From positions 1-43,399 of the IMG/VR virus record IMGVR_UViG_3300009168_000029: a stretch of 43,399 nt of DNA. One strand, 5' to 3'. This document shows, in pieces, positions 4,178-37,417 of this stretch (position 1 is the stretch's first letter; each line of letters begins with the position of its first letter). The translations under genes and the position numbers were made by a program. The stretch comes from a virus. Below the pieces are notes generated by a model. That model did no database searches. It was not told the DNA's origin and saw only the letters and a program-made list of their open reading frames with translations.

Positions 4178-4202
4178 GATACGCTATCCTCTGCATGCTG
4201 GT

Positions 4203-4277
4203 GGCATGGCCTGGCGCTGCGTGGCTGGGCGAGGTTAGGTGGGGCAGGGCTAGGCAAGGCAAGGCAAGGCAAGGCAA
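4203..4277 (+). repeat. Pentanucleotide-register array, inverted copy
   Basis: Fifteen consecutive 5-base units starting with (G/T)G(C/T), ending in five perfect GGCAA units. Read on the other strand this is the same pattern as the arrays at 35.86-36.61 and 37.27-37.42 kb. It fills the gap between the endolysin start and a terminator and contains no gene. Confidence 0.85.
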
Positions 4278-4281
4278 GGGA

Positions 4282-4306
4282 GGGGTCGCTTCGGCGGCCC
4301 CTTTTT
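4282..4306 (+). terminator. Intrinsic terminator of the rightward unit
   Basis: An 8-bp perfect stem (one G-T wobble) with the very stable UUCG tetraloop, followed by TTTTT. The orientation serves rightward transcripts, which would read past 3630 and through the antisense of the endolysin gene, then through the pentamer array, before stopping here. Confidence 0.88.
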
Positions 4307-7685: not shown

Positions 7686-10600
7686 CAGTTGCCCCCCTCG
7701 TAGAGCGCCTTGTCGTCGTCCGACATTACCGCCCACTCGGCCGCCGTCGGCCATTCTCCTGCGTAACCTTCCGGTTTAGGCGGCAGCGGATCGTCTGCCG
7801 GCTTATCAAAAGCACCAACCTTGTTGAGCATGAATTCCATTTGGGGCGTCAAAATTGAGCGCCGGTTCAGTTCCTGCAATTTCGTGCGGGCTTCCTTGAT
7901 GGAGATAACTTCGTTCTCGGCCTGGGTGATGATGTTCGACCGCTCGATGTCAATTTGGGCCTTCGCCATGATGGCTTGGCCGATCAACTTGTTCGCGACG
8001 GGGTCTTTGGATAGGCCCGGCAGTCCCCGCAGCACGCCGGCATATTCGATGTCCGACTGCGAGCCGGTGCCTGCTACATGGAAGGTCGGTGCCATCTGAG
8101 AAATGAGTGAAGCGGCAAGATCGCCGGCCGTCGAGAAGCCTGGGAACCACTCCAGCAACCGACCTGTAAGCGGGCCGTCTGGGGCCGCGTTCAGGGCTTC
8201 CATCAGCACCTCTAGGCTTTGTGACCGCGACGCAGCGCGGTCGCCAGCCTCCTTGATCTTCGACCAGCGCTCGCCCTCGCTTTCCGAGAGCTTCTTGCGG
8301 AGCGCAGCATCGGCACCGGGCTCGCCCCCAACCGTTTGCGATACGCTGATCGTCCCTGCTTTTGTCCAAGTGAGACGGTCGACTGGAAGCGGCGGCAATT
8401 CGGCTTCCGGTACACCCGATGCTTTAGCCGCGTCTCTGGCCTGAAGCGCCTCTCTAACGTAGTCATTATATTTTGGATCGGACGGCTCGGTGCCGGGGAC
8501 GACCGACGGCTTGCCGTCCGTTACCATCCAGTTGCCCGCCCCGAGCGGCAAGCGCATCGCCTTGGCTTCGTCCGTCGTCAGGAGCTTGGTGCCCGGAGGT
8601 GCGCTCCACAGCGCCTGGCCGGTAACCGGGTGATAGGCCGTGTTGTTGATGATCTTCGGCTCGATCTTCGGCCCCTCGGTGACGTTGCCCTTGGCATCGA
8701 TGCGGGCGTTGATGGTCGGGTCGATGCCCTGATCGCGCTTCTCGGCGTCGGTCATGGCGCGGGTCGGCGTCTGTGCCTGGCGGAGGTTCTCGATCGCCGC
8801 CTGCAGTTCCACCCGGTACTTCGGGTCGGCCTGCTGCAGTTCCTGGTCGAGCATGGTCTTGGCGATCGCCAACTGACCGTCGTTGCTCCACGGGTTCTGG
8901 ATGACGGCGATGGCCTTTTGCGCTGTGTCCGAAAGGCCACCGCCCGCACCCGGAGCGCCGGGCGTCCCGGCAGGGCCACCAGCACCCGCCATTGCAGTCG
9001 CCACCGGGTTGGCAGCGCCGCCGGCAGGGGCGCGAGGCCCGCCTCCGAACAGCCGACCGATGATGCCGCGCCCACCACCACCCGCGAGGGTGTCGGTGCC
9101 GGCGCCGCCCGTGAGGGCAGCCGCGACCGGGGATACGCCCGGCGACAGGGCTTCGTGACCGGCGCTCGCCACTGGATCCATCAGGCCGCTGGTCTGCGGC
9201 AGGGGATCGACGCCAAGGGCTTGAGCCACAGGGGCTACCCCAGCACCGGCCGGAGCCACCGGAGCGACTGGCGGGGCTGCTACGGGGTCTGCAGGCCGCA
9301 CTGGCGGGGTGGGGATGGCGGGATAGTCGGTGCCGGGGATGCCCCCCTCGTATGGTGTCGCGCCTCCGGCTGGGACGAAGGCAGGGGCTGCCGGGATGAT
9401 GGGTTGGAAGTCATCCTTGGCGGCGGGATCGAAACTGAGCGCCTCGATGGTGTCTCGAACCGCTGGAACCGGCGTCAGTGTGTCACCGCCAATGCCTCCC
9501 CTCAGAGCCTCGGTGACGGCAGGCTGTCCGCCGCCACCCGCGAGGGCAAAGACACTTCCGCCAGATCCGTCGAGCGGTCGCCCAATGCCGCTGGCGCTCG
9601 GCGGGGAAGCCCCGCTGGGACGGCCACGGGCTCCGGCCACCTCCATGTGCCACGGCTCGTTAGACAGCGGGAAGCTGAACCCAAACTTGCCCGCATTCTG
9701 GTGCGCCCATTCCCGCGCCCGCTTGGAGGCAAACTTCCAGTCGATGGCGTTGCCAAAACCGTGCTGCGACCGGCCGGGAGGGGCCACCCACTTGCGGGCC
9801 GCCGAGGCGGAACCGTACTTCTTGAGAGCGCCTTGCCAGAGCCGTTCCTGTGTCTCCGGCGAGCGGAAGCCCGACATCACCCGAAGCTCGTTCTGGATGT
9901 CGGCCGGGGCCGAGGAGATCATCGCCCCGAGGCCGCTCGACATCTCGGGCTGGAGCCCGCTGAAGCTGTCGCCCCGCGCCGCCGCCCCACCCGTGGCAAA
10001 CGGCGAGAAGTCGAAGGCACTAGTCGCCCCTACGGGACCGGGGTCACCTACGGCTCCGGCTACCCCGATCTCTCCACTTTCGTCGCGGGCAGGTACTATG
10101 TTTTCCTCATCCCATCCGGTCCACTTATTCTTCCGCTTTGGGCGAAGCGTAGCTTCCCGCACCAGCGGCGTGTCGCTGCCGGCCAGGGCCGACGTGACAG
10201 CCGCAGTCCCGCCGCCGCGGTTAATGCCCTCCCATTCGCCGATGCCTGCGGGGCCGCGCCCGTACCACGGCTTCCAGCCGCTCTTGGCGGCGTTCTTCAG
10301 GGCGTAGTCGATCTGCGCCTGCCAGGTCGAAGGGTCGGTCAGGTCGCCCTCAAAGCCCGCCCCGAGGCCCTTGGTATGAAGCTGGAACGGCCCGTAGGAT
10401 GTCTCCCGGACGCCGTCCTTGACGACATTGCTCTGCCATGTGCCGGGCTGTAGGCCTTCGTGCTTGGCGAGGTTGACCGCGACGTCTGGATCTACGCCAT
10501 ACTTCGGCGCCGAGGCGCGGATGTAGGCTTCCTGCGTCGCCACATCCGGGATACCGGCAACCGACATATCGGTGCCACCCGCCGGCACTACACCGGGAAG

Positions 10601-34680: not shown

Positions 34681-34869
34681 TCAACTGGCTGCCTCGTCAA
34701 GTACCCCGAATGCCATCTCTGGGAAGGCGGCAACTAAGACCTTCAGGGCATCCCTCGCAACGTCATCCTGCTCGTCGGGGTGCAAGGCATCAAACGGCAC
34801 ATCGCCATCAGCGACTGACCAGAGCGCCCTTGCTGCCGCCTCGATGCGAGCGGGGTTAAGCGTGATCAT
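34681..34869 (-). CDS. Small hypothetical protein
   Basis: A 62-residue acidic helical protein (ITLNPARIEAAARALWSV, then DEQDDVARDALKVLVAAFPE). ATG 34869 forms an ATGA overlap with the stop of the XF1762-like gene. The pattern resembles short phage proteins often found beside terminase genes, with no known role. Confidence 0.65.
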   Translation of the reverse strand: MITLNPARIEAAARALWSVADGDVPFDALHPDEQDDVARDALKVLVAAFPEMAFGVLDEAAS

Positions 34870-35327
34870 CGCCCTATCCAGAGGCCTCCAGTTCGAACAG
34901 GAGCTTCGTCTGGAGCGGGTGCTTGTCGACCCGCGGGCGTGATGGCGTCGACCACGACCTGCCCCGACCACGATCGCCGAGACAGCGCCAAGCCGGCAGC
35001 TGTGAGCGACGTGCCCGGCTCGCTGGCGAGGATGTATGTTCCGATGCGCTTATAGCCGAGGGCAAAGGCCGCTCGAGCCGCCCGGCCGTAAAGGAACGAG
35101 CAGGCGTTGGGCGTGCCGTCGGTGCAGAGCCGGGTGACCTCGGCGGTCATGCCGTCATCCCTCATCCGGGCCACCGGACGCCCGACGATGACCACCCCGA
35201 CGATTGCATCTCCGGTCGATGCGCCGAGCGAAAACAAGTGGCCGACCACGGGACGATGATGCCGGTGGTGCGCCTCGACAAAGGCGTTGGCTTCCCCGAG
35301 TTCAATGCGGACGTGATCGAGCCTCAC
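34866..35327 (-). CDS. XF1762-family (acetyltransferase-like) protein with C-terminal frameshift
   Basis: The N-terminal 120 residues match the XF1762 family: ANAFVEAHHRHHRPVVGHLF, then VGVVIVGRPVARMRDDG, EVTRLCTDGTPNACSFLYG and GYKRIGTYILASEPGTSLTA. After AAG the frame given here runs into an unfamiliar tail. The family's expected ending (WRCLGD...SWSTPSRPRVDKHP and onward, stop at 34874) is present in the neighbouring frame, reached by removing one base near 34990. So there is a one-base insertion, a sequencing error, or a programmed shift. GTG 35327 is chosen because it makes a GTGA overlap with the previous stop and has GGAG upstream. Confidence 0.75.
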   Translation of the reverse strand: MRLDHVRIELGEANAFVEAHHRHHRPVVGHLFSLGASTGDAIVGVVIVGRPVARMRDDGMTAEVTRLCTDGTPNACSFLYGRAARAAFALGYKRIGTYILASEPGTSLTAAGLALSRRSWSGQVVVDAITPAGRQAPAPDEAPVRTGGLWIGR

Positions 35328-35854
35328 TGGGATATTCTCCAGTGTCTTGCCAATCTGTCCAGGCACCAGGCGAGGTTGGACAGGCCGACGGCGCCGATCG
35401 GGGCCTGCTCGTGCTCCATGGTCAGCCTGAAGGCGGCCAACAGGTCGACGCCAGTGCCGAGGGCGGCAACCGCGTCGTCGTACTGGTCCATTGCCCGATG
35501 GCGCTTTTCGAGCAGCCGTTGGCCCTCCTTGGTGTCGACCGGCGGATCTTCGCCGGCATGGGCGCTGCCGCCACCGGGAGCGAGCGGATAGGGCATGGGG
35601 CTACCGATCGCCACGAGGTAGGCCTCCCGGCAGGACCACCAGCGCTTGGCAGCCTGGTATTGCGTGGCGGTGATTTTGCCGGCCAAAAACAAGCGGCCAG
35701 CCTCGGAGCCCCATTCGGGGTCGGCCATCCTTGCCACCGCAGCATCGCGCAAGCGCTTGGCGCTGGTCGGCGATGGCACAGCATCCTCGGCCTCGGCCCG
35801 TGACGGGCGGCCTGAAGGCTCACGGGAGCGGATGCCTTTGGCCTTGCGAACCAA
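35324..35854 (-). CDS. Hypothetical protein preceding terminase
   Basis: A 176-residue protein of unknown function (RKAKGIRSREPSGRPSRAEA at the N terminus, then DPEWGSEAGRLFLAGKITAT, and a C-terminal helical part with LSNLAWCLDRLARHW). The TTG at 35854 is chosen as the start. AAGGGA lies about nine bases before it, the natural protein sequence begins there, and the in-frame extension to 35941 is simply translation of the pentamer array. The array therefore forms its 5' leader. It is coupled by a GTGA overlap to the next gene. Confidence 0.68.
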   Translation of the reverse strand: MVRKAKGIRSREPSGRPSRAEAEDAVPSPTSAKRLRDAAVARMADPEWGSEAGRLFLAGKITATQYQAAKRWWSCREAYLVAIGSPMPYPLAPGGGSAHAGEDPPVDTKEGQRLLEKRHRAMDQYDDAVAALGTGVDLLAAFRLTMEHEQAPIGAVGLSNLAWCLDRLARHWRISQ

Positions 35855-36613
35855 TCGAAAAGTTCCCTTGCTTTGCCTCGCCTCGCCGTACCGTACGCCG
35901 CCGCACAGGACCCCGCACCGCACCGCCGCACAAGACGCCACCGCACCATACGCCGCACAGCCTGGCGCTGCTCCGTAAACCGCTAAAGTATCCTCGCCTC
36001 GCCTCGCCTGACCTCACCGCGCATTGCCTCACCCGGCCGCGCCGCACCCGGCGTCGCCCCGCACCGCCGGACAGGACATAGCCGTGCCTAGCCTAGCATA
36101 AACCACTAAAGTATCCTCGCCTTGCCTTGCCTTGCCCCGCTATGCCACGCCTTGCCTTGCCCTGCCCTGCACTGCCCAGCCAGACCCGACCAGACATCGC
36201 ACCGCGCAATCATCAAAGTATCCTCGCCTTGCCTTGCATTGCAGCACATCGCCATACCTCGCGTGACATCGCCAAGCACAGCACCGCCACGCAGAGCATT
36301 GCCGACATCGCAATCCAATCAAGTATCCTTGCCTTGCACCACGCAGCCCGACCACGCCATGCCTTGCACCGCCTCGCAGAGCCCGACAGCACCTAGCCTC
36401 GCCCCGCCATGCTACAGCACCAAACACCAAAGTATCCCTTGCCTCGCCTCACCTCGCGCAGCATCGCCGAGCATCGCCACGCCCAGCTGCGCCACGCGCG
36501 ACCTGGCATCGCAGAGAACGCAACCAACTAAAATATCCTTGCCTTGCCGCACAACACAAAGCATCGCCTTGCCCTGCCGCACCGGACCCGGCAGCGCCTT
36601 ACACTGCAGAGCA
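35855..36613 (-). repeat. Seven-module pentanucleotide-register array (non-coding)
   Basis: This 759-base gap contains no convincing gene. On the plus strand RC (G/A then C) recurs every 5 bases with the following bases variable. I counted unbroken runs of 20 units (35875-35974), 21 (35996-36100), 17 (36124-36208), 16 (36226-36305), 17 (36331-36415), 15 (36441-36515) and 15 (36541-36615). Runs are separated by A/T-rich headers reading AAGGATACTTT or near variants on the minus strand, usually preceded there by AAGGC units. Runs differ in sequence but keep the register. The array starts at the stop codon of the upstream gene and ends at the SD of the next. Confidence 0.9.
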
Positions 36614-37219
36614 CTACGCCGCCTTGATGATCGCCGTATCCAGCACTTGCCAGTTTACAACCACAAATCGTCCAAACGGACCTTTACGCGCCGGTCTGTA
36701 ATCGCCCAGGCCAATTTTTCGGCCGGCGTCGTCGACCACCGACCGAACCAACCCCGGACTAAACATCGTGGTATCGACCTCGACCGTGAACGTCAGGCGC
36801 CACCTGTCGACCCGCGGCCGGTGGCACATGATCCGACCACCCGTCGAGGGGATCACCACCGATCGGCTGTCGACCTCCCAATGCTTAAGCGGCCGGTCCT
36901 CCTCGTCGTACAGGGCGCACACCAGTTCATCGACCACCAGGCCTGCCGGGATCAGCGAGCTCTTCATGGTCGTCAGCTTCGACTTGCCCGCCTTATGGAA
37001 GGTGCCCGCCGCGATGATGCACGAGAAAATGTTGGGGCCGGGAATGTACAGGAAACCGTCGGTGTCGGCGTAGCGCTTGGCTTCGGCCTGCTCTCGGGGC
37101 GTCCCCTTGTCGCCGCGGAAGGTGACTGCGGTGCCGCCGCTGACCTGAACCTCAGCCGCCTCGGTGAAGCGGTTCATCAGGAGAGGAGCCATACCTTGGA
37201 TGGTGATCTCGATTTTCAT
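36614..37219 (-). CDS. Orphan protein embedded between pentamer arrays
   Basis: A 201-residue protein of unknown function, with pentamer arrays directly upstream and directly downstream. The N terminus KIEITIQGMAPLLMNRF and the C-terminal pattern VRSVVDDAGRKIGLGDYRP, then GPFGRFVV, resemble a phage family with a strand-rich fold and a Gly-rich loop. The G-x-G-D-x-R-P...G-x-F-G-x-F run is somewhat like the glycine-rich loop of RAMP/Cas7-type RNA-binding proteins, a weak similarity I cannot test here. The start is an ATG with AAAGGAT upstream. It is the only gene in the leftward unit isolated by non-coding DNA on both sides. Confidence 0.75.
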   Translation of the reverse strand: MKIEITIQGMAPLLMNRFTEAAEVQVSGGTAVTFRGDKGTPREQAEAKRYADTDGFLYIPGPNIFSCIIAAGTFHKAGKSKLTTMKSSLIPAGLVVDELVCALYDEEDRPLKHWEVDSRSVVIPSTGGRIMCHRPRVDRWRLTFTVEVDTTMFSPGLVRSVVDDAGRKIGLGDYRPARKGPFGRFVVVNWQVLDTAIIKAA

Positions 37220-37272
37220 TTTAGCATATCCTTTGCCGGTCTGAGCGGCGGTGAAGTTCGTTTAGTTTCCTT

Positions 37273-37417
37273 GCCTTGCCTAGCCCTGCCATGCACTGCG
37301 CCGCAAAACCACGCGCCGCGGTGCCAAACACGGCCGTACCACGCACTGCTACACACTGCTACACGTTGCAACGCCACACTGGGCAAGGCTCCGCCCGACA
37401 TGGCAACGCCACGCACC
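37273..37417 (-). repeat. Pentanucleotide-register array, 29-unit run
   Basis: Twenty-nine consecutive 5-base units, each starting RC on the plus strand, fill the space between the stop of the 44-residue gene (37420) and a short A/T-rich leader of the 201-residue gene. The minus-strand end reads AAGGCAAGGAAACTAAACG, similar to the headers of the large array. Confidence 0.88.

Follow-up and report, generated by a model that had tools for sequence, protein, structure and literature searches.

A phage locus of five-base-register arrays around a RAMP gene, very probably a VIPR system with nine guide tracts

Introduction

The described system closest to the locus considered here is VIPR (Viral Interference Programmable Repeat), which was presented in a preprint of April-June 2026 (PMC13142463). 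In the preprint's account, the Vipr protein is an early-branching RAMP found mainly in phages and proviruses, and vrRNAs of about 100 nt, each built of 9-16 YNNGG repeats followed by a 3′ tail, flank vipr in phages (PMC13142463). Their units are of the form GGY/NN, where the fixed motif is given as GGY “or a related consensus” (PMC13142463). The vrRNAs are reported to guide the RAMP protein to double-stranded DNA: the NN bases alone pair, one target base is skipped between NN pairs, the skipped bases fall on wobble positions, and a PAM is described as unnecessary (PMC13142463). Targets are reported to be competing phages and prophages, and VIPR is thought to switch off rival phage genes (PMC13142463). 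The preprint distinguishes seven VIPR types, in which accessory vap genes are typical but not universal (PMC13142463).

The window analysed here is the whole 43,399-nucleotide stretch of the IMG/VR virus record IMGVR_UViG_3300009168_000029, in which a preliminary description had pointed to a non-coding array of variable sequence. The locus is very probably a VIPR system of the phage, with the arrays as vrRNA genes (probability about 0.92). It is a known, very recent kind of system; here the repeat is modestly relaxed and the set of guides is large.

The locus and its parts

The vipr gene sits inside the array cluster: eight tracts lie around it, seven of them tightly packed downstream and one upstream. 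The preliminary description had counted seven modules, and all seven lie where it put them; two more runs (37273-37417 and 4201-4275) had been missed, which makes nine in all. With the tracts named as the putative vrRNAs that they would be under the VIPR reading, the features are these:

37273..37417, minus strand: vrRNA1 repeat tract of 29 units that may be two overlapping guides, upstream of vipr
37247..37272, minus strand: vrRNA1 3′ flank (tail), AAGGAAACTAAACG...
36614..37219, minus strand: vipr, encoding the 201-aa Vipr protein with a predicted RAMP/Cas7-like fold, phrog_4652 (profile match, AlphaFold2, Foldseek)
36541..36615, minus strand: vrRNA2 repeat tract, 15 units (15-17 with the register continuing to 36625, into the vipr stop)
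36516..36540, minus strand: vrRNA2 tail and link to vrRNA3, AAGGATATTTTAG...
36441..36515, minus strand: vrRNA3 repeat tract, 15 units
36416..36440, minus strand: vrRNA3 tail and link to vrRNA4
36331..36415, minus strand: vrRNA4 repeat tract, 17 units
36306..36330, minus strand: vrRNA4 tail and link to vrRNA5
36226..36305, minus strand: vrRNA5 repeat tract, 16 units
36209..36225, minus strand: vrRNA5 tail and link to vrRNA6, GAGGATACTTTGATGATT
36119..36208, minus strand: vrRNA6 repeat tract, 18 units
36101..36118, minus strand: vrRNA6 tail and link to vrRNA7, GAGGATACTTTAGTGGTT
35996..36100, minus strand: vrRNA7 repeat tract, 21 units
35975..35995, minus strand: vrRNA7 tail and link to vrRNA8
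35870..35974, minus strand: vrRNA8 repeat tract, 21 units
35844..35869, minus strand: vrRNA8 tail, AAGGGAACTTTTCGATTGG, reaching into the start region of the gene that follows
4201..4275, plus strand: vrRNA9, an unlinked 15-unit tract adjoining the endolysin gene and separated from vipr by more than 30 kb of the record
4282..4306, plus strand: intrinsic-terminator-like hairpin (GGGGTCGCTTCGGCGGCCCC + T5) directly after vrRNA9, seen in the sequence

Two genes downstream of the vrRNA cluster lies a gene for a Mom-like DNA modification protein (34866-35366, minus strand; phrog_1384, E=7e-30).

The five-base register

The strict five-base register claimed for the array was borne out by the autocorrelation check that had been proposed along with it. 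Identity at lag 5 is 0.525, against 0.296 ± 0.017 (maximum 0.349) in 500 dinucleotide shuffles (z = 13.8), and the array has up to 21 RCNNN units in one unbroken run, against at most 9 in the same shuffles. The description was also right that the array is non-coding (the five-base period and the stops rule out a coding sequence) and that the minus strand is the functional one, carrying triplets with two-base spacers: the unit on that strand reads NN-K-G-Y, with G at position 4 and C or T at position 5 in 152/152 units each. An Rfam search of the array matched no known RNA family, and a tRNA search found none.

The bases outside the fixed pair had been said to vary freely. This holds for the hypervariable NN (entropies of 1.85 and 1.95 bits for N1 and N2) but not for the third minus-strand base, which is biased (G 55%, T 30%, C 9%, A 6% in the window tracts), and not for the run ends. 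In most window runs the final two or three minus-strand units are near-constant (RAGGC RAGGC), and a AGGATACTTT-like sequence common to the run ends follows directly after them on that strand, so the ends are not free. A AGGATACTTTRRTKG-like tail stands after six of the eight minus-strand tracts and appears to be the conserved 3′ tail that a VIPR array should have. The near-constant RAGGC at the 3′ ends of most tracts could be a fixed handle or could reflect polar repeat growth.

Such near-identical last units look like fresh slippage products, as would be expected if the array were a slippage-born microsatellite, diversified by drift and without function. Drift of this kind sits badly with a G and a Y that are invariant in every one of the 152 units though their neighbours vary, and with the recurrence, in about 90 phages and next to one protein family, of the same architecture built on different triplets. 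We regard a functionless microsatellite as extremely improbable.

The partner protein

The gene inside the cluster belongs to PHROG 4652, annotated as function unknown, and a Pfam search with its product gave no match. The profile of its family (81 array-adjacent homologues) matches PDB 36pp_D, “SUSP1 Vipr protein”, with E = 6.7e-40 and recovers the SUSP1 gene with E=9.8e-43, and Csm5 matches the same 81-member profile weakly. Compared pairwise, the window and SUSP1 Vipr proteins are weakly alike (33% over 60 residues). The AlphaFold2 model of window Vipr (pLDDT 92.4) has as its best 50 Foldseek matches Cas7-type RAMPs, for the most part Csm3 from type III CRISPR complexes (E about 1e-6 and TM about 0.5 against Csm3/Cas7), so that the protein encoded at 36614-37219 (minus strand) is, as modelled, a RAMP. 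Its G-loop reads GLGDYRP..GPFGRF. Profile, model, structural matches and loop agree on a minimal RAMP with RRM core and G-loop that is homologous to SUSP1 Vipr, as the definition of VIPR asks. An oligomerising RNA-binding protein had been named beforehand as the array's likely partner, rightly in that a RAMP (Cas7-fold) gene lies inside the array cluster.

The same scripts, run on the SUSP1 locus, find tracts of 11-14 units with the same pattern around SUSP1 vipr. The window locus and SUSP1 VIPR (PDB 36pp) are alike in being phage-borne, in their homologous small RAMP, in several non-coding tracts that flank vipr, in five-nucleotide units that combine a fixed (G)GY with a hypervariable NN, and in a tail after each tract. 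They also differ. The window tracts have 15-29 units, compared with the 9-16 that the preprint reports (PMC13142463); the first G is present in 55% of window units and 74% of SUSP1 units by the same count; the window has no vap1 homologue beside vipr; and its tracts comprise seven that are tightly packed and one unlinked tract on the other strand. The window motif is therefore not strict GGY but a related, relaxed consensus, in which GY is universal and the first G is often replaced by T.

The class 1 backbone RAMPs Csm3 and Cas7 share with window Vipr the RRM/RAMP fold and the G-loop, and they oligomerise on a guide RNA with a periodic register, as window Vipr by analogy may do. Unlike their CRISPR-Cas systems, the window system has no CRISPR repeats or spacers and a single small protein, and its guide would be broken every 5 nt by fixed bases. 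A CRISPR-Cas array proper (direct repeats, unique contiguous spacers, cas genes) was considered and rejected, the window array being 5-nt periodic with no repeat-spacer structure.

Similar arrays in other phages

Viral contigs were scanned with a pattern of 16 RCNNN units, and at least 120 stretches matched. Since every unit must carry RC, or GY when read from the opposite strand, to match the pattern, triplets with neither would be missed. The matching viral stretches carry similar five-base arrays that are not copies of the window, and their abundance in other phages refutes the alternative, raised in the preliminary description, of a one-off slippage artefact. At most loci a single fixed triplet (or pair) with two hypervariable bases is common to all the arrays, and from phage to phage the triplet changes.

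Partner proteins were sought by clustering and iterative profile searches of the ORFs in the array loci. Among the matches listed, the Vipr family occurs in the same stretch in 91 of about 116 array loci, and its genes mostly lie no more than about 60 bases from an array, many of them having arrays on either side. Neither a Vipr-family protein nor a run of at least 12 units was found in 51 control viral loci (482 kb) that had been fetched for another reason.

Two other families were considered as array-binding proteins, a winged-helix-like one (26 loci) and a ParB-like one (4 loci), and both were dropped because Vipr is far more consistent with the arrays. The winged-helix-like genes lie beside or between arrays and match the SUSP1 gene downstream of vipr (hhalign probability 97.4%, E = 1e-11), which is why the family is called vap1-like here; that the SUSP1 gene is the preprint's vap1 we infer from the gene's position. 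No vap1-like homologue adjoins the window vipr. The ParB-like gene, a possible accessory gene, lies between or beside arrays and vipr (L071, 3719-4411; also L056, L107 and L122). Very large guide sets were seen in L096 and L071, with 12 and 10 GGT-type tracts near one vipr. GTTNN / AACNN arrays occur in an AT-rich phage fragment (L063, 10420-10520 and 10825-11120), where the stretch examined holds no Vipr.

The regular presence of Vipr beside the arrays also bears on whether they could be tandem recognition sites, triplet plus NN, for a phage primase. Primases of T7 and T4 recognise GTC and GTT/GCT, respectively, and make primers of the form pppRCNNN, and the arrays offer both RCNNN units and these triplets. 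The reading was dropped because the protein found beside the arrays is Vipr; in addition, the sense-strand motifs (GGY, CGC, GAC, CAC, AGC) are mostly not known as primase sites. The probability of this reading is very small.

Motif variants and the Vipr tree

When arrays are oriented by vipr, the fixed motif is GGY at 59 loci, CGY at 5, GAC at 4, CAC at 1 and AGC at 1, and a further 21 loci have no dominant first base (all among the matches listed). Two of these 21 (L036 and L113) are near CGY, and the “relaxed” label of L038, L073, L091 and L122 is probably an artefact of arrays that run opposite to vipr.

The motif (GGY, CGC, GAC, CAC, AGC or relaxed GY) tends to follow the Vipr tree. All CGC, GAC and CAC motifs, with a few GGY, fall in a separate 14-row clade with support of 100. 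Members of this CGC/GAC/CAC-rich clade include L036, L044, L061/L135, L075, L103, L113, L115, L120, L123, L144 and L146, and many of its loci carry a vap1-like gene. Window Vipr falls in a 12-row clade (SH-aLRT 96) that also includes L106, L050, L084, L151, L152, L039/L072, L118, L128, L089 and L134. Across the scorable rows of this clade 11-82% of units have the first G, and the first-base entropy is 1.97 bits in L106, 1.88 in L050 and 1.56 in the window, compared with near 0 in most other systems. A few rows outside this clade (L070, L078 and L081 among them) also have a free first base.

In the tracts of L050 and L106, GY alone is fixed and three bases vary almost freely. A tentative reading, which we think somewhat less likely to be right than wrong, is that the window clade uses a variant of the GGY/NN code in which GY alone is obligatory, either because its Vipr may have lost the first-base contact or because the third base may add guide information.

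In bacterial genomes the closest relatives of window Vipr are a protein of Mesorhizobium sp. Root552 (78% identical) and one of a Phenylobacterium MAG (64%), and the portal protein has its closest named relative in Rhizobium phage RHph_I3_18. Together these suggest from sequence kinship that the host of the window phage is alphaproteobacterial. In Mesorhizobium sp. Root552 (L151), vipr (10001-10576) is flanked by short, seemingly decayed tracts with a few off-motif units. The tract after this vipr runs into a terminator-like hairpin, as vrRNA9 does in the window.

Pairing code and targets

In NN, counted over 2,945 GGY units, the first base is rich in G and the dinucleotide TA reaches 0.66 of its expected frequency. 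This codon-like signature agrees with the preprint's statement that the skipped bases lie on wobble positions (PMC13142463), and it could come in part from context-dependent mutation.

The signature is also relevant to the comparison that the preliminary description had drawn with TRAP-like ring proteins, in which the hypervariable bases served as spacers. TRAP targets are RNA triplets about two bases apart, and if a TRAP-like ring or another non-guide RNA-binding oligomer bound the array, with the variable bases as plain spacers, both this geometry and the GY fixed in every unit would be explained. The window triplets, however, are (K)GY rather than (G/U)AG, and the co-occurring protein is a RAMP homologous to SUSP1 Vipr and not TRAP. 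Triplets also differ between clades in step with the tendency noted above, run lengths range from 15 to 29 where a fixed number of 11 would be looked for, and a codon-like bias of NN pairs is unexpected for spacers. A non-guide oligomer is thus very improbable, and by homology to VIPR vrRNAs the hypervariable bases would be the guide itself (PMC13142463). The other option that had been offered, a filament on DNA, comes closer: binding to DNA is reported for the VIPR RNP, with RNAs as the guides (PMC13142463).

Within the VIPR reading, the relaxed X of XGY in the window clade might itself pair, which would give three guide bases per unit and a contiguous target. The high entropy of X in L106, L050 and the window speaks for this, as does the published skip rule, which leaves exactly one target base per unit (PMC13142463). 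Against it, stop codons are not rare when X is read in frame as the third codon base (12 NNX stops seen and 10.4 expected, a weak test without known targets), so that X as a wobble base finds no support there; X in the window is biased to G/T; and contiguous NNN decoding gave nothing convincing in 50,697 phage records. Pairing by X is improbable, and NN pairing with a skipped base is the reading kept here.

Searches for targets were negative throughout. A local scan of 111 sampled guides (all window guides included) with skips of 0-3 gave nothing beyond noise. The NNx patterns for v4, v5 and v6 and the L078 guide pattern had no match in viral contigs, and v4 had none at up to 3 mismatches in 398 genomes from the order to which the Mesorhizobium relative belongs. 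Eight-unit seeds of v3, v2 and v9 matched 17, 24 and 10 stretches of viral contigs, about the number expected by chance, and these matches could not be extended. The searched collections probably lack the true host and its rival phages.

Proposed working of the locus

Around the array, register, tails, Vipr gene and fold, array-Vipr association and clade that are observed here, a course of events can be proposed by analogy with published VIPR, from which we infer for the window phage that the arrays are transcribed, that an RNP forms, that the skip rule applies and that DNA is targeted and its transcription repressed. A minus-strand transcript would start upstream of vipr and run through the seven packed modules, yielding eight vrRNAs of roughly 100 nt with 15-21 units, closed at the 3′ end by a short tail of conserved sequence. 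Along each of these RNAs Vipr subunits would assemble, one to every 5-nt unit; the protein would read the fixed (K)GY bases and leave the two hypervariable ones exposed. Double-stranded DNA from a rival phage or prophage could then be recognised by successive NN pairs, which would base-pair with it and skip one target base between them, and this pairing would repress transcription at the target. The ninth, unlinked vrRNA gene would end in its own terminator.

Significance

VIPR is a newly reported form of RNA-guided DNA recognition and a proposed ancestor of CRISPR RAMPs (PMC13142463). The window supplies a very probable case with nine guide tracts in a phage of probably alphaproteobacterial hosts, and the survey adds about 90 further array-plus-vipr loci among the matches listed. 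The motif-diverse loci among them are a ready set in which to look for the Vipr residues that recognise the motif and to ask if the pairing code shifts along with it.
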